A stretch of 64,000 nt of DNA from a bacterium BMS3Abin11 (GCA_002897635.1 BDTD01000023.1:1-64000); one strand, 5' to 3'. Counted from the first letter of the stretch, positions 1-11,255 are shown. Numbers and translations: made by a program. The notes: generated by a model from the letters alone, not told the origin.

Positions 1-443
1 CCATGGCCTTTATCGCCGATTTCTCCGATCCTGATGCCGCCGAAGAGGCAGTGCTTGCTGCGTTGGCATCACACCAGAAGGTGATGGGGTTTGGCCACCG
101 GGTCTACCGGGAATCAGATCCACGTAACGTACTGATCAAAGCATGGAGTAAACGGCTGTCAGATGAAACCGGTGATAGTCGACTGTTTACTGTTTCCGAA
201 CGTATCGAGCAGGTGATGTGGCGCGAAAAAAAGCTGTTCGCCAATCTGGATTTCTACAGTGCCTCGGTTTATTACTTCCTCGCTATCCCGGTGTCACTGT
301 ATACCCCGGTGTTTGTGTGTGCGCGGATGAGTGGCTGGGCCGCTCATGTCATAGAGCAACGTCAGCATAATCGCCTGATCCGGCCTGCTGCCAATTATAT
401 AGGGCCAGACAAAAGATCCTTCGTGCCACTTGAGAAAAGATAA
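1..443 (+). CDS. prpC: 2-methylcitrate synthase, C-terminal part (partial)
   Basis: Condenses propionyl-CoA with oxaloacetate in the methylcitrate cycle. Only the last ~146 residues are in the window; the reading frame is open to the left edge, so the true start lies outside and the in-frame ATG at 3 is internal. The citrate-synthase catalytic motifs are visible: GFGHRVYR with the active-site His, and NLDFYSAS with the catalytic Asp. The YYFLAIP and MSGWAAHVIEQ segments that follow fit PrpC and the type II-like bacterial citrate synthases. The stop TAA shares one base with the ATG of prpD (TAATG), which supports the methylcitrate rather than TCA assignment. Confidence 0.9.
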   Translation, partial: MAFIADFSDPDAAEEAVLAALASHQKVMGFGHRVYRESDPRNVLIKAWSKRLSDETGDSRLFTVSERIEQVMWREKKLFANLDFYSASVYYFLAIPVSLYTPVFVCARMSGWAAHVIEQRQHNRLIRPAANYIGPDKRSFVPLEKR

Positions 444-1867
444 TGAACACACAGGCACCGGTACCGGTGGATGCATTGCTGAATCAACTCACGGACTATG
501 TGCTCGATTACACCCCTGGTAGTCTGGATGCGTATGACACGGCTCGCTATTGTCTCATCGACAGTCTTGGTTGTGCCCTCTGCAGCCTCGATGACCCAGA
601 CTGCCAGCGTGTGCTCGGTCCACTGCTGGATGACATCACCATATCCGGTGGGATTTGTATCCCCGGACTGAAACAGGAACTGGAACCGGTACAGGCCGCC
701 TTTAATTTGGGCAGCATGATCCGCTGGCTGGATTTCAACGACACCTGGCTGGCTGCAGAATGGGGACACCCGTCAGATAACCTCGGCGGAATTCTGGCTG
801 CGGCACTGTTGATGGAAAAACGCCAGCCTGGTGTTTCGTTGCACGATATCCTGACGGCAATGATTAAGGCCTATGAAATACAGGGCTGCCTGGCCCTTGG
901 TAACAGCTTTAATCGGTTTGGGCTGGATCATGTCATCCTGGTGCGGGTTGCTACTGCACTGGTTACCAGCGCCATGCTCGGCTCTTCGCGCCAACAGGTT
1001 TTTAATGCCCTGTCGAATGCCTGGGTGGATGGCGGCACCTTGCGGTGTTACCGCCATGCCCCGGATACCGGTTCGCGTAAAAGTTGGGCGGCGGGGGATG
1101 CCACCGCGCGTGGCCTGTGGCTGGCGCTACTGGCCTTGCGAGGTGAGATGGGATATCCGCACGCGCTCAGCACACCCGGCTGGGGTTTCCAGGACAGCCT
1201 GTTGCACGGCGAGGAACTCACCCTGACACAACCGCTCGACTGTTACGTGATGCAAAATATCCTGTTCAAGGCAAACTTTCCGGCCGAATTTCATGCCCAG
1301 ACAGCCGTTGAAGCCGCCATACAATTGTATGCAGTGGAAGGTGAACGTTGCGATGTCATCAGGCGTATCGTGATAGAAACCCAGCAGGCTGGTATGCGCA
1401 TCATCAACAAGACCGGCACGCTGAATAATCCGGCAGACCGTGACCACTGTCTGCAATACATGGTGGCTATTGCGCTTTTGCACGGTAAGCTGACCAGCGA
1501 GGATTACCATGACAGCCGAGCGGCCGACCCGCGCATTGATCGATTGCGTAACTGTATGGAGGTTGTCGAAAATCCTGATTTCACGTGCGCCTATCTCGAC
1601 CCGTTACGGCGTGCGATTCCCGGTGCCGTGCAGATATTTTTTAATGACGGTAGCCACAGTAAACGCATCGCTGTGGAATATCCTCTCGGTCATCTTCAAC
1701 GACGGGAGGAAGCACTGCCTCTGCTGCACAAAAAATTCCGCATCAACACTAGCAACTATCTCGAAAAGGATCGCTGTGAACAGGTTCTGGCACTGCTAGT
1801 CGATAGAGAACGCTTTGATGTCATGCCGGTGAGCGACTTTATGCAACTGTTGCGTAGGCGGCGTTAA
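443..1867 (+). CDS. prpD: 2-methylcitrate dehydratase (MmgE/PrpD family)
   Basis: Dehydrates 2-methylcitrate to 2-methyl-cis-aconitate, the second step of propionate breakdown through the methylcitrate cycle. The 474-residue product has the usual PrpD length. Family landmarks include DSLGCAL near residue 33, FNDTW near residue 97, WGHPSDNLGG, and ADRDHCLQYMVAIALLHG in the C-terminal half. It is translationally coupled to prpC. No acnD/prpF gene follows, so within this window the cycle is represented by prpC-prpD only. A diverged 60-bp relic of the ADRDHCLQYM region lies about 9 kb downstream at 10675-10734. Confidence 0.95.
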   Translation: MNTQAPVPVDALLNQLTDYVLDYTPGSLDAYDTARYCLIDSLGCALCSLDDPDCQRVLGPLLDDITISGGICIPGLKQELEPVQAAFNLGSMIRWLDFNDTWLAAEWGHPSDNLGGILAAALLMEKRQPGVSLHDILTAMIKAYEIQGCLALGNSFNRFGLDHVILVRVATALVTSAMLGSSRQQVFNALSNAWVDGGTLRCYRHAPDTGSRKSWAAGDATARGLWLALLALRGEMGYPHALSTPGWGFQDSLLHGEELTLTQPLDCYVMQNILFKANFPAEFHAQTAVEAAIQLYAVEGERCDVIRRIVIETQQAGMRIINKTGTLNNPADRDHCLQYMVAIALLHGKLTSEDYHDSRAADPRIDRLRNCMEVVENPDFTCAYLDPLRRAIPGAVQIFFNDGSHSKRIAVEYPLGHLQRREEALPLLHKKFRINTSNYLEKDRCEQVLALLVDRERFDVMPVSDFMQLLRRRR

Positions 1868-2201
1868 TTGAATTCGGGGCTATCGCCCATCCGCAGGTTT
1901 GGAAGGAGTACACTCTTCTGATTAGCCCGATGCGGAGTTGCTGTATCGGATTGTCCACGAAAGATTTTAGATGGTATTTTAAGGCACGACCAGAATGAAT
2001 ATGCTGGATGCCGAGCATGCAGAACTTACTGGTGCAGAACTTACTGGTGCAGAACTTACTGGTTGCATAAACAATGTAGCTGTTGCATAATTACTTTTCA
2101 GGAAACAACATAGATAGAGTGTGGTTGCAGTTGCCATGTATCGCAGCAACACGTACCAGATATTTGTGTGTCGGGTCTTTTACTTGCCATCGTCGTTGTA
2201 T
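1868..2201. other. gene-free stretch after prpD
   Basis: No convincing coding region on either strand. It contains the three-unit 15-bp tandem repeat listed separately and two copies of GTTGCATAA near 2062-2090. No clear terminator for the prp operon was found. Confidence 0.6.
2018..2062 (+). repeat. 15-bp tandem repeat, three perfect units
   Basis: The unit TGCAGAACTTACTGG is repeated three times without mismatch (2018-2032, 2033-2047, 2048-2062). It lies between prpD and the IS200-like element. The unit length is a multiple of three, but no supported ORF covers it. Function unknown. Confidence 0.95.
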
Positions 2202-2294: not shown

Positions 2295-2748
2295 ATGGAT
2301 CTTCAGAGAAATACGCATCATGTATACCGCTTAATGTATCATTTTGTGTGGATACCAAAGTATCGACATAAAATATTCAGTACGCCACAACGTAAAGCAC
2401 TGAAGTTGATTATACAGAAAATTGGGTATGACTACGGAATTGAAATTGTAGAACTAGAAATACCAGAAGATCATATCCACATGGTAGTACGAAGCGAGCC
2501 GAAGCAGTCACCGAACAAGATAATGCAGGTAATCAAAAGTATTTCAGCAAGAGAGTTTTTTAGGCTTTTCCCGAACATCAAGAAACGTTACTTCTGGGGA
2601 GGGAAATTATGGACACAAAGCTATTTTTTTGAGTCGATTAGGTAATGCAGATGAAAATACAATCAGGCAGTATGTTCAGAATCAGTTGTCAGAACTTGAT
2701 CGTAAAGAAGAACCAGCTAAGCAACTGGAGCTGTTTAAAACTCGGTAG
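2295..2748 (+). pseudogene. tnpA: IS200-family transposase TnpA, frameshifted
   Basis: Y1 HUH transposase of the IS200/IS605 family. The first frame (2295-2645) reads the family sequence from MDLQRNTHHVYRLMYHFVW through the HUH metal motif HIHM (about residues 60-63) to KLWTQSYFFESI, then stops. An extra A at 2640 separates it from the remaining family sequence: GNADENTIRQYVQNQLSELD, ending in a tag at 2746-2748. The presumed catalytic tyrosine (IRQYVQ, codon at 2671) lies after the shift, so the short product would be catalytically dead. A sequencing error or recoding at ATT AGG TAA cannot be excluded. Confidence 0.8.
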
Positions 2749-2921: not shown

Positions 2922-3788
2922 TTGCCAGAGGAGCCGGAGGCGACGTTGGTTGATCGGATTTATGGCATGGGCGGAGTGCCACCCGGCAAAGGGAAGGCAG
3001 GCCGCAAGCGCTATGCGATGGTTGTAGATCTGCGGCGTTGCAATGGATGCAACGCTTGCACCGCCGCTTGCAAGGCTAACTATGATGTGCCGCTGGGTGA
3101 ATGGCGCATGTGGGTCATGGAAACGGAGATGGGGGAATTCCCGAACACCAAGCGTTATGTATTACCGCGCTTGTGTAATCAATGCGACGACCCACCTTGC
3201 GTAGTGTCCTGTCCGACTCAGGCTACCTTCAGGCATCCCGACGGCTTCGTCCTGCAACGTTACAACCGCTGCATTGGTTGCCGCGCCTGCATGGTCGCCT
3301 GCCCATACAACGCCAGGCATCTGCTGCCCGATTACCGGCGAGACAAACGCAATCCCCGCAACGTCGCCGACAAGTGCGATTTCTGCGTCGTGCGCGTGAC
3401 TCGCGGCCTGGCCCCGTTTTGCGTGGCCTCCTGCACCGGAGGGGCCCTCATATTCGGTGACATCAACGATCCCGAAAGCGAGGTAGCCCGTCTGGTCAGG
3501 GAGAACAAGATATTCACCCTAAGGCCGGAGCTGGGTACTGCACCACAGGTCTACTACATCGGCTTGAACGAGTCTATCGCCGATCCGGACTTCGCCTTTA
3601 CTAACCGTAGTGCCCAGCTTCGTGAGCGTTACATCACCTTCAAGCATAACAGTGGGGTTGGCGGCGAGATGGGCGGCAATATCGATGCTTCTGATATGGG
3701 CTTTTTCGGTCTGGTGCGCCAGGGGCTGCGCAATTTCGCGAGCTTCTTCGGGGAGGCACCGAAGAAGTTTTTCAGAGGATTGTACTGA
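2922..3788 (+). CDS. four-cluster ferredoxin subunit of a CISM (Qrc/ACIII/Psr-like) complex
   Basis: Predicted electron-transfer subunit with four Fe-S clusters, of the PsrB/TtrB/QrcC type. Cysteine groups appear in order: CNGCNACTAAC (around residue 42), CNQCDDPPC...C, CIGCRACMVAC, and CDFC paired with CVASC. There is no signal peptide, so export would be by hitch-hiking with the Tat-signal partner. Start is uncertain: TTG 2922 gives 288 residues; TTG 2946 has GGAGG five bases upstream; ATG 2967 is also in frame. The stop overlaps the ATG of the NrfD gene by one base. Its GC content looks higher than that of the flanking housekeeping genes. Confidence 0.85.
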   Translation: MPEEPEATLVDRIYGMGGVPPGKGKAGRKRYAMVVDLRRCNGCNACTAACKANYDVPLGEWRMWVMETEMGEFPNTKRYVLPRLCNQCDDPPCVVSCPTQATFRHPDGFVLQRYNRCIGCRACMVACPYNARHLLPDYRRDKRNPRNVADKCDFCVVRVTRGLAPFCVASCTGGALIFGDINDPESEVARLVRENKIFTLRPELGTAPQVYYIGLNESIADPDFAFTNRSAQLRERYITFKHNSGVGGEMGGNIDASDMGFFGLVRQGLRNFASFFGEAPKKFFRGLY

Positions 3789-4690
3789 TGGAAGGCCAGG
3801 TCATTGCCAACGCGTTCCAAAATGCCTACTGGGGATTTCCCATCGCCCTGTACTTCTGGCTGGTGGGCGCCTCTGCCGGCTCATTCGTGATCAGCACGCT
3901 GGGGTGGGTGTTCGGCATCAAGAAATACAAGCCCATCGCCTTTTTCGCCTCGAATACCGCCATCGTGGCGCTACTGATCGTGCCGGTACTGCTGGTCATC
4001 GACTTGGGCAAGCCCTACCGCTTTTTTCACCTCTATATTTTCGCCCATTGGTCAGCGCCGATGGTATGGGGGTCATTTCTCATCACGACCTATCCGATCG
4101 CCATGGGGTTCTACAGTTACTTCGTGTACCGTGAGAACCAGCGCTGGGCACGGATATTGGGGATCCTGGCTGTGATTCTGGCCCTGGCTACCCATTGGTA
4201 CACGGGTGTGGTCATGCAGCTGAATCCGTCGCGATTGCCTAATCACACTTCGGTGGCGCCACTCCTGTTTTTGACCGGTGCGTACGTCTCGGGTATCGGA
4301 CTACTCATTCTCTGCCTGTGGATACGCAACTTCCTGGTAGATGTAAAAGCCAGGGTGTCGAATGAGTTGCGGGCAGATATGGCGCGTCTCATGCTCTACG
4401 GTATCGTTTTCGACCTTTTTCTGTTGGGAAACGAGTTTCTGCAGATGACGTATGGGACAGGCGAAGAACGCACTCTCCTCTATGATGTATTATTGGGCGT
4501 ATTCCGCTGGCCATACTTATATATGGAGATTGTATGGGGTCTCCTACTGCCGTTGGTCATTCTGGTTATCCCCAAGATCAATCGGACCCCCAACGGGGTG
4601 CTCATAGCCTCCTTCATGACTGCCACCGGCGTTTACGGTATGCGCATCTGGTGGGTTATGGGGACGTTATACTTCCAAGGCCATTTTTGA
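3788..4690 (+). CDS. NrfD/PsrC/QrcD-type integral membrane subunit
   Basis: About eight hydrophobic helices across 300 residues, as in the NrfD/PsrC family, which binds quinone at the periplasmic side of the membrane. It begins on the stop of the ferredoxin gene (TGATG) and is followed after 33 bases by the molybdopterin-family gene. The pairing of NrfD and four-cluster ferredoxin is the defining module of complex iron-sulfur molybdoenzymes and of their Mo-free relatives Qrc and alternative complex III. Direction of electron flow (quinone reduction or quinol oxidation) cannot be read from sequence. Confidence 0.88.
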   Translation: MEGQVIANAFQNAYWGFPIALYFWLVGASAGSFVISTLGWVFGIKKYKPIAFFASNTAIVALLIVPVLLVIDLGKPYRFFHLYIFAHWSAPMVWGSFLITTYPIAMGFYSYFVYRENQRWARILGILAVILALATHWYTGVVMQLNPSRLPNHTSVAPLLFLTGAYVSGIGLLILCLWIRNFLVDVKARVSNELRADMARLMLYGIVFDLFLLGNEFLQMTYGTGEERTLLYDVLLGVFRWPYLYMEIVWGLLLPLVILVIPKINRTPNGVLIASFMTATGVYGMRIWWVMGTLYFQGHF

Positions 4691-4723
4691 GAAAGCCATT
4701 TTTGAGGGCACAGGAAATAAAAC

Positions 4724-7072
4724 ATGAAGATTAGTCGACGTCGGTTTTTGCAAGTGAGTGCGGCAGTGACTACCGCACTCGGGTACAAGAGAAAGGCCTC
4801 TGCCATGGAGGTGGCCCTTGGCGACCAGTCATACAACTATATCAGGCGCCAGCCGCGGGAACGCGTATTCTCTTGTTCTCCACTGTCTCTGCACGACAAT
4901 CCAGTAGAAGCTTGGGTGGAGGACGATCCCACCACCGTGAACCTACTCACTGGCAAGCAGGGCAGACAGGTGGTTGAGATCTTCGGCGTGACCGAATCCA
5001 GCCGCAGCAGGGGGCGGGTGAGTGCCGCGGAGGCCTCTTCCTGGCTGGAGCTGACTGACGGCGATCGATTGATGCAACCGCTCAAGCGTGCGGGTGCCCG
5101 GGGTTCCGGAAAATGGCAGCCGATTTCCTGGCAACAGGCGCTCGAAGAGATCGGTGCTGCCATTAAGAACAGTCGGCCGGAGGAGGTTGCGCTCATGCGC
5201 GGCAAGGATACCAGCGCGGGTGCCTGGGACCGCTTCCTGCACACCCTGGGTTCAAATACCGTGATCGAGCTGAATGATACGACGAATCGACGGGCAGCAT
5301 TGCAAACGGTTTGGGGAGAGGATGACTCGATACCCGACCTGGCGAATAGCCATTATATTCTTAATTTTGGTACCAACTTTCTCGTCAGTCTTCCGGACTA
5401 TGCAGCGGATGCCGTCGATGGCAAGTTATTCCGCCGCGCCCGGATCGTTACATTCGATCCACGTTGTTCGAAGACCGCCGGCCTTTCAGATGAATGGGTG
5501 GAGGTGCGTCCGGGGACGGACGGGGTGGTGGCTTTGGCAATGACGCGCTACCTCCTTGATAGTGGGTGGGCGGACAAAGCTGCCGTCGAGCGTTTTAGCA
5601 ATCTTAGTGCCGCTCGTCTTGAACGGGAGCTGAAGCCTTACACGCTCGAGCATGCCGCAGAGATCAGCGGAGTACCAGCGTTAACCATTCGCCGCATTGC
5701 CCAGGAGTTCGCAGAGAGCGGACGAGGCTGCGTCATGACCGGCGCGGGCACGAGTGGTCACGCCAACGGCTATGACACCGAGCGGGCCTTGATGTTGCTG
5801 CCCCTGGTGATTGGTGCAGTGGAGAGCAGAGGTGGGAACTGCCTGCCAGAGCGTCTTGACCTGGGGAGAATCGAGCCCACGCCGCCGGTACCCAGGAGCA
5901 AGAATCCAGTACTCAATCCGTACAAATTTCCGTTTGAAGCCGGGAAACAGTATCCCATCAATGTACTCTTCGGATACAACACTAATCCGGCATTCGCCGC
6001 TCCATCCGCGGCACTTTGGCGCCGTGCGCTTGCCGATCAGAACCAGATTGGGTTGTTCGTCGGTATTGGTACTTTACGCAACGAGACCTGGGAACTGGCG
6101 GACATCATCCTTCCAGAGAGCCACTGGCTTGAGCGCAATGAGCCGGTACAGGGTGAGGGAAGCCTCCTGCCCTGGGTGGGTCTCAGGCAGCAGGTTGTGA
6201 GTCCCCCGGGGCAGGTCAGGGAATTGCGTGAGATCCTGCGCGATATAGTACTTGCAACCGGCGATCGCAAAAAAGCACACTACTGGCAGTTCAGCGATAC
6301 CAAAGAATGGCTGGGTCGGCAGCTCAACGGCGTTACCGGCCTGAAAAAGGGCGGCGGCTGGGAGTTGATGGCCAAGCACAGTGGGGTATGGCCCATATAC
6401 GGCCACCTGGATCCGGTGTTGCGTCGTATTGTCGACGAGCAGGGCGAGGAAGTGTTACCGAAATACGGTCGGTCAGTGAAAATGAATCTTACTCCCTTCC
6501 CTCACTGGAAGGCAGCCAAAGACACCGCTGCTGGCGAGGGCGAACTCGTCCTGCTAGTGCACGCCTCCGACTACCATGCCGGGGACGCATCGGCCAATAA
6601 CAAGGTGGTCGTGGAGATGACGCTGGCCAATCACTTGCAGATCAACGTAAAGACTGCGGAAAGCCTGGGGATCAACGATGGCGACTTGGTGCGGGTGAGT
6701 TCGAAGGCGGGTTATCTGGTGACTCGTGCCCGTCTCACCCAGTCCATCCGCCCAGAAGTGGTCGCTATGCACCGTGAGGGGGGGCACTGGAGTATCGGTA
6801 GAGTGGCCAGAGGCAAGGCGGGGCCGGAGCACGAGGAAGACCCCATCAATATCGATCACGACATCGCTCACAATCTGTGGTGGTCGGATCTCGGGGTTCA
6901 TCCCATGGATCTGATCGTTCCCGTATTTGACAAAAAGGGCGGGGGTCCGGCCTCTGCCACCACGGTAAAGGTGAAGAAGGCCGAAGGCGAAGATACCTAC
7001 GGTACAGTTAAAGTAGACACGTCGGCGTTGCTTGCATTCCAGCGCTCCGCTACGTTGCAGGAAAGGGGTTAA
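4724..7072 (+). CDS. molybdopterin-oxidoreductase-family subunit lacking Fe-S ligands (QrcB/ActB1-like)
   Basis: 782 residues with an N-terminal Tat signal, SRRRFLQVSAAVTTALG (residues 4-20), so it is exported. DMSO-reductase-family landmarks are present: PLKRAG and GKWQPISWQQALEEIG, domain II with VTFDPRCSKTAG and EVRPGTDG, MTGAGTSGHANG, and the C-terminal cofactor domain (ESLGINDGDLVRV). The N-terminal CxxCxxxC...C motif is missing: only one Cys (FSCSPLSLHD) remains where four are expected, and the region usually holding the Mo-ligating Cys/Ser reads ELNDTTNRRAA. Only four cysteines occur in the protein. This matches QrcB and the N-terminal half of ActB, which carry no Mo and no cluster; a cluster-free Mo enzyme is the alternative. 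Confidence 0.85.
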   Translation: MKISRRRFLQVSAAVTTALGYKRKASAMEVALGDQSYNYIRRQPRERVFSCSPLSLHDNPVEAWVEDDPTTVNLLTGKQGRQVVEIFGVTESSRSRGRVSAAEASSWLELTDGDRLMQPLKRAGARGSGKWQPISWQQALEEIGAAIKNSRPEEVALMRGKDTSAGAWDRFLHTLGSNTVIELNDTTNRRAALQTVWGEDDSIPDLANSHYILNFGTNFLVSLPDYAADAVDGKLFRRARIVTFDPRCSKTAGLSDEWVEVRPGTDGVVALAMTRYLLDSGWADKAAVERFSNLSAARLERELKPYTLEHAAEISGVPALTIRRIAQEFAESGRGCVMTGAGTSGHANGYDTERALMLLPLVIGAVESRGGNCLPERLDLGRIEPTPPVPRSKNPVLNPYKFPFEAGKQYPINVLFGYNTNPAFAAPSAALWRRALADQNQIGLFVGIGTLRNETWELADIILPESHWLERNEPVQGEGSLLPWVGLRQQVVSPPGQVRELREILRDIVLATGDRKKAHYWQFSDTKEWLGRQLNGVTGLKKGGGWELMAKHSGVWPIYGHLDPVLRRIVDEQGEEVLPKYGRSVKMNLTPFPHWKAAKDTAAGEGELVLLVHASDYHAGDASANNKVVVEMTLANHLQINVKTAESLGINDGDLVRVSSKAGYLVTRARLTQSIRPEVVAMHREGGHWSIGRVARGKAGPEHEEDPINIDHDIAHNLWWSDLGVHPMDLIVPVFDKKGGGPASATTVKVKKAEGEDTYGTVKVDTSALLAFQRSATLQERG

Positions 7073-7076
7073 CCAC

Positions 7077-8279
7077 ATGACGAGAAAAAGAAAGATCATC
7101 GTCACCGCAGCGCTCAGTGTAACGGGTCTGTTCCTGCTCTACATTGTCGGCAAGATCGGTATTCTGCCCGTCTACGGGGTCACCTCCGTGTTTCAGACGC
7201 CAGGTACCTGCAGCGTCTGCCACGAGACTTGGTATAACGAGGCCGCGTACGCCTTCAACCCCAAGGGCAACGCAAAACTGCCCTCTTCTGGGGTGACCAT
7301 CGGCTGCGCAGAGTGCCACCCGGTTCAGTTTGAGGAATACAAGCTTTCGGCCATGGGTAACAGCAAGAACGCATTGCGGCCCGGGTGTGTCAACTGTCAC
7401 GACAAAACGCATTCGGTGTTCCAATGGTTTTCACACATGTATCTGGGCAATGAGGGCTGGACGAAAACGGTACAGCTCGCGCTGAGAGATCGGGAATTGT
7501 ACAACACCAAGCTGTCACCGCATCTTGCAACGAAGGCGCGCGCAAGGTTCATTGAGACGGACAGTGCGCGGTGCCGGGAATGCCATTCTCAGGGGGATAA
7601 CCGATCCCAGCTTAAGGGAACTAGCGGTGAATACCGGCCCAAAATCCCGCCGCATCAAGAGGCGAAGGCGCAGAATCTCACCTGCATCCAGTGTCACCAG
7701 AACCTGACACACAATCTTTCCTATCCGGTCGCGCAGAACGGGGCAGGGCAGGGCAGCGTTGAGGCTGGGGAGCAGAAATCCGCGATGTGTGCCGGCTGCC
7801 ACGGTGCCGACGGCAACAGCTCGCAAGCTGCATTCCCGAGTATCGCCGGGTTGAATTCCAACTACTTCTCGATGCAGCTACAGGCGTTCAAGTCGGGCAG
7901 TCGGAAAAACAGTCTCATGCAGGGCTTTGTGGCGGGTCTGAACAAGAAGGACATGGCTGATCTGGCGGCCTACTACAGCAAGCAGAAGATGCGTCCCACC
8001 CTGGTCTGGCCCAAGGTGCTGTCGCTTCAGCAGCGAGCGAACCTGGAAATCGGCGAGACACTGTACAAGGGGAACTGCGCTCGTTGTCATGGGTTGACCG
8101 GCCGCGGACAAGGCATTTTCCCAGCGCTGGCGGGTCAGCATCAGGATTATGATCGCGCACAAATGGCTGCCTTCAAGGCGGGAACTCGCAACAAGTACTC
8201 CGTCATGCGCGATGTGGCGAAGGGGATTAGCGATACTGACTTGAGGCTGATTGCCGACTACCTGGCGGGACTCAAGTGA
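7077..8279 (+). CDS. membrane-anchored heptaheme cytochrome c (NapC/NirT-like plus c4-like fusion)
   Basis: 400 residues from ATG 7077, preceded by GGAAAGGGG. An uncleaved signal anchor (about residues 8-28) leads into five CxxCH sites: CSVCH, CAECH, CVNCH, CRECH and CIQCH. Two cytochrome c4/c553-like domains follow, each with one site (CAGCHGADG and CARCHGLTG), making seven hemes. The N-terminal half resembles NapC/NirT or ActA/QrcA-type cytochromes. The C-terminal half resembles a diheme cytochrome c4. It starts five bases after the molybdopterin-family gene stop and probably carries electrons between the complex and soluble periplasmic carriers. The fusion itself is unusual. Confidence 0.85.
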   Translation: MTRKRKIIVTAALSVTGLFLLYIVGKIGILPVYGVTSVFQTPGTCSVCHETWYNEAAYAFNPKGNAKLPSSGVTIGCAECHPVQFEEYKLSAMGNSKNALRPGCVNCHDKTHSVFQWFSHMYLGNEGWTKTVQLALRDRELYNTKLSPHLATKARARFIETDSARCRECHSQGDNRSQLKGTSGEYRPKIPPHQEAKAQNLTCIQCHQNLTHNLSYPVAQNGAGQGSVEAGEQKSAMCAGCHGADGNSSQAAFPSIAGLNSNYFSMQLQAFKSGSRKNSLMQGFVAGLNKKDMADLAAYYSKQKMRPTLVWPKVLSLQQRANLEIGETLYKGNCARCHGLTGRGQGIFPALAGQHQDYDRAQMAAFKAGTRNKYSVMRDVAKGISDTDLRLIADYLAGLK

Positions 8280-8776
8280 ACGGAAGGATCCTACGTGATC
8301 TGCCGGAGAGCTGCCCACCCGGGCAGCCTCGACAACCCGTTCACTCCGTACTGCGCGTCTATGATGTATTTGTCAATGTGGAAGGTCTGCGGGTTCGGGT
8401 GCCTAAGCCTCTTCTCGGGTTTATTCCCTTCGGCGTAAGTAAGAGTTTCGGCTTCTATGTCGTGATGATACTTGCTGCCTCCGAGTCCAGCGAGTCTGCG
8501 CAGCTGTTGAGCCTGGCCAAGGCGGCGCTTGCCGATGAGTTTGCGTCGATTAGTCGGAACTCACCGGATGAGTGGGATATACAACAGGTAAACTGTCGCG
8601 AGGTTGGAGCGGCACCGCCGGAGTTTCAGCAACCGGGTTGTGTCGACCATGACTGGGGCGCAATATGGTATGAGCTTGGGGATGAGACCGCGAAACGCGA
8701 TCGCTACGAGCTGGCAAAGACGCGCCTGTGGGAAGAAGGTTTCAAGGTATCGAGGGCGCCCATTCTGCCGATATAG
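8276..8776 (+). CDS. uncharacterised protein in the cytochrome operon
   Basis: 166 residues from a GTG that overlaps the cytochrome stop (AAGTGA), so it is translationally coupled. I recognise no family. There is no signal peptide or clear transmembrane helix apart from a short hydrophobic run (GFYVVMILAAS, near residue 60). Residues 90-165 are mixed charged and look globular. A maturation or chaperone role, as dedicated proteins often have next to exported redox subunits, is only a guess from position. No TorD-type motif was seen. Confidence 0.6.
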   Translation: MNGRILRDLPESCPPGQPRQPVHSVLRVYDVFVNVEGLRVRVPKPLLGFIPFGVSKSFGFYVVMILAASESSESAQLLSLAKAALADEFASISRNSPDEWDIQQVNCREVGAAPPEFQQPGCVDHDWGAIWYELGDETAKRDRYELAKTRLWEEGFKVSRAPILPI

Positions 8777-8799
8777 GTGCGACACGTGATACAGGTTTC

Positions 8800-9972
8800 A
8801 TGAACGAGAACAGCACTTTGCGCTTCAACACCCGGGGTGACACAGCCAAAGGTTCCAGCGACACCGCGCTACGGATTGACCAGATGCAGTGTCTGAACCT
8901 CAGGGGACGAAACGTCACCTGCATGCAGTGCGCCGACACCTGCTCGGCAAAGGCACTGAAATTAACGGTAGACGAGGTCAGTCTGGATGCGGGACGATGT
9001 ACCGCATGCGGGGCATGCCTGCCGGTTTGTCCGTCAGGTGCCATGTGGCTGACTGGATTCGTTCCGCAGCAATTTCTGGAAACCGTGGCGGGTGCGGCCG
9101 AGATACACATTTACTGTAGCCAAAGCGACGATCCCGATAGTGATATTATTGTTCCCTGCCTCCAGGTTCTGGATACCCGCTTGCTTGCCGCGGCAGCCGC
9201 GGATGGTGCGGAGACCGTGGTGCTACACGGTACCGACCAGTGTTCGAGCTGCGATCGAGGAGATGCTCGCGCTGTCTTCGAGCAGATACACGCAAACCTG
9301 AAAAGATGGTTCACTGATGTCCCTGTGCACCTCATACAAGAGAACCGGGCGCAGATCGGAAAGGGAGAGCGCTCGGGTGAAGATCAGATTCAGCTCGGCC
9401 GCCGAAATTTCCTGCGTTTTGCTGGTGCCAAGGTTGCCCACGGTGCTTCGAAGTGGCTCGTAGATGCTGCACCGGAACAGGATGAGGCAACATCGCAACG
9501 GTTTATTTTCCCGAGCGATGGAAGTTCCAGTCGCCCATCCGCATATCAGGAGCTGCTGGCAGAGCGAGCCGAGTCACTTCCCTGGCGAGACCACCAGTTG
9601 CCCTGGCGTTCCCTCGTGTTCAGCGATGCCTGTAACGCGTGTCTTACCTGTGCCCAACGCTGTCCCACGGGGGCGCTGGTACCGAAAGAGACAAAGTCAA
9701 CGATTTCTATTTTGTTCCGTTTGCGTCAATGCACAGACTGCGGTCTGTGTGGACATCTCTGCCCCGAAAGCGCTATCTCGTGCGCTTCGGTCGCGAGCTC
9801 GGAAGAACTGCGCGCACCGGCGCATCGCGTGATGCATCGCAGCCTGCGTCAGTGCGCAGGCTGCGCCCGCAGCTTTGTTCCCGGGCCGGATTCCGGTGAG
9901 TTGTGCACGACCTGCCAGAACGAACTCGATGTGGCGAACGACTGGAAGACAATGTTGATCGATTCGTCGTAA
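8800..9972 (+). CDS. multi-cluster ferredoxin with NapF-like C-terminal half
   Basis: 390 residues from ATG 8800. The N-terminal part has two cysteine groups (CMQCADTC and CTACGACLPVCP) and a middle region with paired Cys (IYCSQ, CSSCDRGD). Near residue 200 comes LGRRNFLRFAG, a twin-arginine-like motif placed as in NapF. It is followed by two ferredoxin motifs, CNACLTCAQRCP and CTDCGLCGHLCP, and a zinc-ribbon-like tail CAGC...CTTC. This looks like a fusion of a ferredoxin with a NapF-type protein. It probably supports assembly of, or electron transfer to, the upstream complex. The internal RR motif is not at the N-terminus, so export by Tat is doubtful. Confidence 0.75.
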   Translation: MNENSTLRFNTRGDTAKGSSDTALRIDQMQCLNLRGRNVTCMQCADTCSAKALKLTVDEVSLDAGRCTACGACLPVCPSGAMWLTGFVPQQFLETVAGAAEIHIYCSQSDDPDSDIIVPCLQVLDTRLLAAAAADGAETVVLHGTDQCSSCDRGDARAVFEQIHANLKRWFTDVPVHLIQENRAQIGKGERSGEDQIQLGRRNFLRFAGAKVAHGASKWLVDAAPEQDEATSQRFIFPSDGSSSRPSAYQELLAERAESLPWRDHQLPWRSLVFSDACNACLTCAQRCPTGALVPKETKSTISILFRLRQCTDCGLCGHLCPESAISCASVASSEELRAPAHRVMHRSLRQCAGCARSFVPGPDSGELCTTCQNELDVANDWKTMLIDSS

Positions 9973-10075
9973 GCGACGATTCTCCCGCACTCTTTCCGCG
10001 ATGATCTCGTCGCTAGGGCGGGAAGCACCGCCGCCGGAAGAAACAAATTCATTCAACGAACACAGGAGATAAGAC

Positions 10076-10562
10076 ATGTACATTTGCTTTTTAAAGACAT
10101 TCTGGAAAGCCGCGCTCGTACTGATCGGTGTGGCGATTTTTCAACCCATTGCCGCAGCGGCAGACGCCCCGGACAATTTCCAGGTCGTCGATGGTGTGGC
10201 GATCTATCTGGGTGTGGTGCCGGCCCAGGTTATCCAGGGGCACCCCAAGGAGCACCTGGAATCCAAGATGCATGGAGGTGTTCCGATCAAGGGTCACCGT
10301 GATCATGTGGTCGTGGCCTTGTTCGACGACGCCACCGGCAAGCGTATCGAAAATGCGAAGGTCAAAGGTAGCGTTATGGAAATCGGCCTGGGGGGGGAAA
10401 CAAAAAAGGCTCGATGCCATGAAGATCGCCGGCACGATCACCTACGGTAACTACTTTGACATGCCGAACAAGGGTACTTATCACATCAAGCTATGGATTC
10501 GCATCCCTGGCATGTCGCATGACATTGAAGTAAGATTCACGCATCGGCACACTGACGGCTAA
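10076..10562 (+). pseudogene. periplasmic YtkA/FixH-like protein, frameshifted in a G8 run
   Basis: The start ATG 10076 has AGGAG nine bases upstream and an N-terminal signal peptide ending near IAAAADA. The frame reads through VIQGHPKEHLESKMHGGVP and HVVVALFDDATGKRIENAKV, then is lost at the eight-G run 10390-10397. Removing one G gives a continuous ending QKRLDAMKIAGTITYGNYFD through MSHDIEVRFTHRH to TAA at 10562 (about 161 residues). The fold resembles YtkA/FixH-type beta-sandwich proteins; the exact role is unknown. The shift may be real decay, homopolymer phase variation or a base-calling error. Confidence 0.65.
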
Positions 10563-10629
10563 ACTATACGTCCCGTGTGGCGCGGCATTATGACGCAAGC
10601 CGTAGACCAGCGGGGGCAAACTGAAGCGT

Positions 10630-10655
10630 ACTGGATTTAACGGATATCGTAAATC
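10630..10655 (+). repeat. right copy of near-direct repeat flanking the accessory segment
   Basis: ACTGGATTTAACGGATATCG followed by TAAATC, matching 2202-2227. It lies 20 bases before a prpD relic, so it marks a plausible right boundary of the inserted ~8.4 kb. Confidence 0.45.
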
Positions 10656-10674
10656 AGGGTCGATTCCGAAGGTT

Positions 10675-10734
10675 TGAATAATTCGGCAGACCGTGGCCAC
10701 TGTCTGCTATTTATGGTTGCAATTGCGCTGTTGC
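10675..10734 (+). pseudogene. prpD fragment (relic)
   Basis: By hand alignment 52 of 60 bases match prpD positions 1422-1481. The conserved reading is NNSADRGHCLLFMVAIAL versus NNPADRDHCLQYMVAIAL in the intact gene. No flanking prpD sequence remains recognisable, so it is a short remnant of a second, diverged prpD. Confidence 0.75.
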
Positions 10735-10782
10735 TTAGCCAGTGGGCCATGCGTACCACCCCCTGTTTCCAATAAGAAGTCC

Positions 10783-10814
10783 TTGACCTGTACCTAACAC
10801 ACAGGTGTTATATT
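10783..10814 (+). promoter_or_regulatory. candidate promoter with palindromic operator before the SPW-repeat gene
   Basis: TTGACC at 10783-10788 resembles a -35 box, and GTTATA/TATATT at 10807-10814 a -10 box (spacing 18-20, longer than ideal). A perfect inverted repeat TAACAC-ACAG-GTGTTA (10795-10810) overlaps the -10 region and could bind a repressor. Confidence 0.4.
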
Positions 10815-10877
10815 TAAGACGTGTTCTAAAGAGCCATCAATTGCAGATGACTCGTTGAGGAACAATGGAGGTGTATT

Positions 10878-11255
10878 ATGAAAGAGCAACGATGGCAAGA
10901 CTGGACGATTGTCGTGTTAGGTGTGTGGCTTGTGCTGGCACCGTTCTTTGGTATCGGTGCTATTGGTGATGTGGCCGCAATCAACTCCTACCTGATCGGA
11001 GCGGTGGTGGCGGTAGTTGCATTCATGGCAATCGCCAAACCGGAACTGTGGAAGGAGTATACTAACCTGACACTTGGACTCTGGTTGATCGCTGCACCGT
11101 TCGTATTAAGCTTCACGAATCAGGCAGGCCCGATGTGGAACCAGATTATCGTAGGCCTTCTGATCGGTGCCGCCGCATTTGATGTCACCTTGAGAATGTC
11201 AAAACCAACGGAAGGACATGGTGGTCCTGAGGGTCACGGTCACGGGCATGCATAG
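10878..11255 (+). CDS. SPW-repeat membrane protein
   Basis: 125 residues with four transmembrane helices arranged as two similar halves. Each contains a W-rich repeat of the SPW type: DWTIVVLGVWLVLAPF and NLTLGLWLIAAPFVLSF. The tail is rich in Gly and His (EGHGGPEGHGHGHA), which could bind metal. The ATG has GGAGG upstream. Family function is unknown; the gene stands alone. Confidence 0.8.
   Translation: MKEQRWQDWTIVVLGVWLVLAPFFGIGAIGDVAAINSYLIGAVVAVVAFMAIAKPELWKEYTNLTLGLWLIAAPFVLSFTNQAGPMWNQIIVGLLIGAAAFDVTLRMSKPTEGHGGPEGHGHGHA

Follow-up and report, generated by a model that had tools for sequence, protein, structure and literature searches.

Gene content and conservation of the operon

We analyzed a 64,000-nucleotide stretch of DNA from bacterium BMS3Abin11 (GCA_002897635.1, BDTD01000023.1:1-64000; hereafter, the window), which carries an operon for a ferredoxin, an NrfD-type membrane protein, a protein of the molybdopterin-binding MopB fold and a multiheme cytochrome c. 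An earlier interpretation made without database searches (the sequence-only reading) had recognized four consecutive same-strand genes for these subunits, with the MopB protein exported by twin-arginine translocation (Tat), and had assigned them to the superfamily of Qrc and alternative complex III (ACIII). Our open reading frame (ORF) and family searches bore out the four genes, and the accessory genes that it had also mentioned number three. The genes, in window coordinates, are as follows; L037 and L038 are the closest related loci.

2949..3788, + strand: ferredoxin subunit, PsrB/NrfC/DsrO-like, 280 aa (Fer4_11, 1.2e-19; DsrO/TtrB models, ~204 bits)
3788..4690, + strand: NrfD-type membrane subunit, 300 aa, candidate quinone-binding subunit (PF03916, 4.1e-34)
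4724..7072, + strand: MopB-fold subunit, Tat-exported, 782 aa (PF00384, 7.5e-33; PF01568, 3.5e-12)
7077..8279, + strand: seven-heme cytochrome c, 400 aa, starting at ATG 7077 (PF03264, 2e-20; seven CxxCH)
8276..8776, + strand: accessory protein, 166 aa, GTG start overlapping the cytochrome stop (67% identity in L037/L038)
8800..9972, + strand: NapF-like ferredoxin accessory protein, ORF open from 8728 (Fer4 domains)
10076..10562, + strand: small protein with a signal-like N terminus, frameshifted in the window and open in L037 and L038 (161-162 aa)

The ferredoxin gene had been placed correctly, although not its start: instead of position 2922, the likeliest start is TTG 2949, which has GGAGG just 5' and gives the 280 aa also found in the L037 and L038 orthologues. 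All 16 cluster cysteines of the ferredoxin are present in the window and in close relatives, predicting four [4Fe-4S] clusters. In the NrfD subunit, which is 55-60% identical to its sister-lineage counterparts (introduced below), a conserved Ser and a C-terminal Arg align with other NrfD proteins. The 166-aa accessory protein had no match in Pfam and NCBIfam searches. The last gene is shifted out of frame by one additional base close to eight consecutive G (~10391), and both of its orthologues are intact. AlphaFold models of MopB and the 166-aa protein had predicted local distance difference test (pLDDT) values of 52 and 42, both too low for use.

Homologues were sought across bacteria and archaea, with each species represented by a single genome. 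L037 and L038, from metagenome-assembled genomes (MAGs) titled Acidiferrobacteraceae, carry the same seven genes in identical order, with MopB proteins 80-81% identical to that of the window. The ratios of nonsynonymous to synonymous substitution (dN/dS) between the window and these orthologues were ~0.06-0.3 overall: 0.06-0.08 for the ferredoxin and NrfD, 0.10 for MopB and 0.13 for the cytochrome. The operon is under purifying selection, and its arrangement is not a matter of chance, since the seven-gene order is kept in two other MAGs at such ratios. We found no description of this operon in the open-access literature.

Loss of active-site residues in MopB

More distant relatives fall into two sets. 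A sister lineage at ~35-37% MopB identity (L039, L041-L044, L046, L048 and L050, in MAGs labelled Sedimenticola, Thioploca, Gammaproteobacteria and others) has the gene order ferredoxin-NrfD-MopB-pentaheme cytochrome, with an unfused c4 domain. Operons with an intact molybdenum (Mo) site occur at similar identity in L040, L045, L047, L049, G067, G090, G131 and an Azoarcus sp. KH32C plasmid; we refer to these as Cys-ligand operons, after the residue that binds Mo.

MopB proteins of the Cys-ligand operons carry the motifs C-x2-C-x3-D...C, for the N-terminal iron-sulfur cluster FS0, and (V/I)CESSKK, around the Mo ligand. Those of the sister lineage keep the three FS0 cysteines and the Lys that follows; they have S, N or G for the ligand Cys, together with a two-residue insertion. 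The window lineage has lost residues at both sites. Its MopB retains one of the three FS0 cysteines (residue 51) and Asp58, the other two being Leu54 and Ser100, and the FS0-proximal Lys (K102) is replaced by Ala102 in all three proteins (window, L037 and L038). The ligand position is occupied by Asp185 (nucleotides 5276-5278), likewise conserved in all three and preceded by a two-residue deletion. The sequence-only reading had noted both a single Cys in the N-terminal cluster motif and a Mo-ligand position without Cys or Ser, and alignments with relatives confirm each point, with Cys51 as the remaining cysteine. Of 22 alignment columns conserved in Mo enzymes and not in QrcB/ActB, the Cys-ligand operons retain a fraction of 0.95-1.0, the sister lineage 0.64-0.73, the window lineage 0.41-0.50 and QrcB/ActB 0-0.32, a contrast that is descriptive and carries no significance test because the columns were picked from the same alignment, with the QrcB/ActB negatives helping to define them. 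As judged from these alignments, the catalytic site of MopB is altered, and the protein may lack Mo.

The TorD family (PF02613) shows a parallel distribution. TorD adjoins MopB in 6/6 Cys-ligand operons tested; none appeared next to MopB in the neighborhoods of the window and sister lineages. A PF02613 search of G507, G508, G509 and G514 gave no match genome-wide. The genome of the window (G000) has one TorD, next to another, truncated MopB on contig C30, and a NarJ-like ORF not picked up by PF02613; these two genes weaken any use of genome-wide TorD absence as proof. On C30 (1-1724, L087), the order is a contig-end C-terminal fragment of that other MopB, then TorD.

Two further features of the Cys-ligand relatives were seen. 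In L040, L045, L047, L049, L026, L028, L030 and L031, Asp takes the place of Cys as the third FS0 ligand, and this C-x2-C-x3-D arrangement suggests an Asp-ligated or three-iron cluster. The Cys-ligand operons in L026 (3383-7066) and L028 (11041-14751) adjoin genes for a PhnD-type binding protein, a histidine kinase and a response regulator, an oxyanion-sensor-like arrangement that in Azoarcus KH32C is adjoined by ars genes.

Several observations weigh against a MopB without Mo. MobA and MoaA matches were found in all hosts, which rules out missing Mo-cofactor synthesis as a proof. N218 and D266, lost in QrcB/ActB, are retained in the window and sister lineages, so pterin may still bind, and Asp serves as the Mo ligand in NarG-type enzymes (PMC10100899), a point that the sequence-only reading did not take into account. 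MopB may thus hold a bound pterin or an Asp-ligated Mo. Could it still be a catalyst? Such an enzyme would carry bis-pyranopterin guanine dinucleotide (bis-PGD), with Mo on Asp185 or without a protein ligand, as in AioA/IdrA (PMC10100899), and would act on an unknown small substrate as a quinol-linked reductase or dehydrogenase. The invariant Asp, the retained N218, D266 and C-terminal pterin domain, hosts that make Mo-bisPGD and a pentaheme cytochrome that matches TorC/NapC models all agree with this, and FS0 would be dispensable because the hemes would feed Mo directly, as in TorC-TorA. However, the two-residue deletion falls right before the ligand, the sister lineage has S, N or G there, TorD is not alongside, the FS0-proximal Lys is gone, and the four-cluster ferredoxin would have no FS0 to pair with. 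We consider a catalytic MopB unlikely.

A fused cytochrome c4 and the proposed direction of electron flow

The cytochrome is a fusion. Residues 226-399 are a diheme cytochrome c4 (PDB 6q2u, 2.8e-28; 1etp, 1.7e-23), and the N-terminal part is the membrane-anchored NapC/NirT-type pentaheme, which matches its sister-lineage counterparts at 1e-21 to 1e-27. The sequence of the best c4 chain (6q2u) recurs in PDB 8snh, an entry that holds a cbb3 oxidase subunit chain, and the tethered c4 suggests direct electron delivery to a cbb3 oxidase. In the sister lineage, the neighbors are cytochrome cd1-type genes (PF02239, 8.5e-114 in L039) or nanowire-type triheme cytochromes (L041); in both lineages, therefore, c-type electron carriers accompany the module.

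The operon probably encodes a periplasm-facing membrane quinol:cytochrome c oxidoreductase that uses MopB as a scaffold, delivers electrons through c4 to cbb3 oxidase and, in the genome of the window, takes over from the cytochrome bc1 complex. The subunits would assemble into one complex in which quinol is oxidized at NrfD and electrons pass along the ferredoxin's four [4Fe-4S] clusters to the NapC-like part with its five hemes, from where the fused c4 domain would hand them to the cbb3-type oxidase. MopB, derived from the Psr/Phs type and having lost FS0 and the standard Mo-ligand motif, would sit between ferredoxin and cytochrome, most likely not as a catalyst.

The same parts could run in reverse, as a cytochrome c:quinone reductase in which proton motive force would be spent on reducing the quinone pool with electrons from sulfur oxidation, in support of CO2 fixation. 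Qrc, which has the same module set, works in this direction as a cytochrome c3:menaquinone reductase (PMC13059093), and relatives of the operon occur in MAGs of sulfur-oxidizer type (Sedimenticola and Thioploca). The c4 domain and the cd1-type neighbors of the sister lineage, however, point to cytochrome c as the acceptor, and we regard reverse operation as improbable.

Family placement outside Qrc and ACIII

Phylogenies of MopB and NrfD, which the sequence-only reading had proposed as a check, put the window proteins on a branch distinct from Qrc and ACIII. In the MopB tree, the window lineage lies with both the sister lineage and the Cys-ligand operons, apart from QrcB and ActB. Approximately unbiased (AU) tests rejected the grouping of MopB with QrcB (p-AU 0.003) and with ActB (p-AU 1e-5); both the window-sister and the window-Cys-ligand groupings were accepted. 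Support for window plus sister was 41-50% on MopB, too low to resolve the grouping, and 88% on NrfD. In the NrfD tree, L040 stands next to the window-sister group, with QrcD and ActC on long separate branches. Among NCBIfam models, PhsA scored best against MopB (221 bits), compared with 146 bits for QrcB (cut-off 440), and TIGR04519 (ActB) had no match in the genome of the window. The best NCBIfam and PDB matches of MopB are of PhsA/PsrA type, yet the window lineage forms a long branch outside reference PhsA, and its MopB lacks the PsrA/PhsA hallmarks (FS0 cysteines and Cys Mo ligand). The window cytochrome had no blastp match to QrcA/ActA better than E 0.02; between QrcA and ActA the values were 1e-9 to 1e-20.

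Comparison of the complexes points the same way. QrcABCD, the menaquinone reductase of sulfate reducers, also combines a multiheme cytochrome, a MopB-fold subunit, a four-cluster ferredoxin and NrfD; its MopB-fold subunit has no catalytic Mo site, as may also be the case in the window operon. Its gene order, however, is cytochrome-MopB-ferredoxin-NrfD, QrcD has ~410-440 aa, QrcA is not detectably similar, and the window MopB and NrfD fall in other clades. ACIII (ActABCDEF) shares the proposed quinol:cytochrome c role, NrfD, a pentaheme cytochrome, occurrence where bc1 is missing and, perhaps, a MopB without Mo (ActB). It differs in that ActB is a MopB-ferredoxin fusion, for which the window has separate genes, and in having a second NrfD (ActF) plus ActD/ActE; the single NrfD of the window operon is far from ActC. 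PsrABC/PhsABC and the Cys-ligand operons (L040, L047 and the Azoarcus KH32C plasmid) resemble the window in MopB identity (34-38%), in the NrfD type of L040 (57%) and, in the operons found here, in ferredoxin-NrfD-MopB order and a homologous NapF-like gene. Unlike the window, they retain the Cys ligand, FS0 and TorD and are without a pentaheme-c4 cytochrome. The sister lineage agrees in gene order, in the missing ligand Cys and in having no TorD alongside; it differs by its FS0 and Lys, its S/N/G at the ligand position, its unfused c4 and its links to cd1-type or nanowire-type cytochromes.

Given the AU tests, the NrfD tree and the cytochrome comparison, the likeness to Qrc and ACIII concerns components and their arrangement and does not reflect close common ancestry. 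A divergent true member of either family is very improbable: the module types are alike and there is the weak QrcB match, but these stand against the AU rejection, an unlike cytochrome, a distant NrfD, a different gene order and a ferredoxin with 16 Cys. The claims of the sequence-only reading about the module set, the degenerate MopB, the operon's own subunit order and its gammaproteobacterial setting all held. Its quinone:cytochrome c oxidoreductase survives as the likeliest role and not as a member of the Qrc/ACIII superfamily. Similarly, the undescribed branch that it suspected stands as a branch, though one apparently derived from Psr/Phs-like Cys-ligand/TorD enzymes. From sequence comparison, the complex is best read as convergent with Qrc and ACIII and derived from Psr/Phs-like Mo enzymes.

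Two observations concern other MopB proteins. Although no redox cofactor is ascribed to QrcB, most of the QrcB-like proteins compared (L070, L072, L073, L074, L075, L076, L077 and L078) keep the FS0 cysteines, which L069 and L071 have lost. Gammaproteobacterial MopB proteins in L015, L018, L019 and L021 have Asn at the Mo-ligand position (e.g., EVINTSV) and group with ActB at 100%; they may be a further lineage in which the Mo site has changed.

Probable operon gain and bc1 deletion in the assembled host genome

The genome of the window (2.67 Mb, 38 contigs, 99.92% complete) was examined for named families and in chosen stretches. This search found no Rieske protein and no cytochrome b. Reading the ORFs for gene names, we found degQ-petA-petB-petC-sspA-sspB-hslV intact in the congeners G001 and G003. 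The syntenic locus, on one 84-kb contig, has degQ, an IS200-type transposase, a 5'-truncated petC, sspA, sspB and hslV, so that ~2.2 kb (petA, petB and the start of petC) are swapped for ~0.6 kb. At this locus (contig C36, L099 reverse complement, 7042-11169), the inserted element is of IS200 type with hairpin-like ends. A contig-edge gap was ruled out as the cause of the missing Rieske protein, since the petC remnant lies inside the 84-kb contig next to the insertion sequence (IS). The window has a similar ORF:

2295..2645, + strand: IS200-like transposase ORF, mobile-element flank 5' of the operon (ORF list; weak tblastx match)

The tblastx match of this ORF is to the pet-locus element (33% over 96 residues).

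The operon was not found in the bc1-bearing congeners G001 and G003. Its guanine-plus-cytosine (GC) content is 0.569, compared with 0.478 in the rest of the window, which indicates horizontal acquisition; other 7.6-kb stretches reach at most 0.491. In L037 and L038 the operon is also GC-rich, within different surroundings. The prpC/prpD genes (2-methylcitrate pathway) at window positions 1-2000 have a GC content of 0.54, above the rest of the window, and the acquired region may therefore begin 5' of the operon. A decaying relic of a Mo-enzyme operon, to which the frameshifted last gene and the foreign origin might point, is scarcely credible with a MopB dN/dS of ~0.10, residue losses shared by three genomes and core ORFs that are all open.

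Foreign GC content and petAB loss together place operon gain and bc1 loss in one genome, in which the complex may stand in for bc1 quinol oxidation. Its cbb3 oxidase has open ccoO, ccoQ and ccoP genes. Other results speak against the replacement. ccoN is split by a one-base frameshift (contig C5, L098), either an error or a recent mutation. The other two operon-bearing genomes (G507 and G508) retain bc1, and the congener G005 (91% complete) shows neither operon nor bc1, which leaves the bc1 swap as one correlated event, read from an assembly. Repeat-driven misassembly at the IS copy might conceivably have shaped the pet locus as assembled.

Implications for the MopB superfamily

Tentatively, and with somewhat less confidence than in the oxidoreductase role itself, we propose an independent substitute for complex III: a Psr/Phs-like complex would have lost its Mo site stepwise (the ligand first, with FS0 still present as it is in the sister lineage, then FS0), gained a pentaheme-c4 cytochrome, spread horizontally and replaced bc1 after an IS-linked loss of petAB. 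Cofactor loss in the MopB superfamily has been described as having occurred three independent times, with Nqo3, FhcB and ActB listed (PMC10100899). If our proposal is true, it would add one more. Living lineages would then represent the Cys-ligand, ligand-lost and ligand-plus-FS0-lost stages, which would make the order of events testable. The operon would also be an alternative to bc1 that is separate from ACIII and brings its own c4 donor to cbb3 oxidase, and it would provide a case of natural exchange with bc1 inside one genus.

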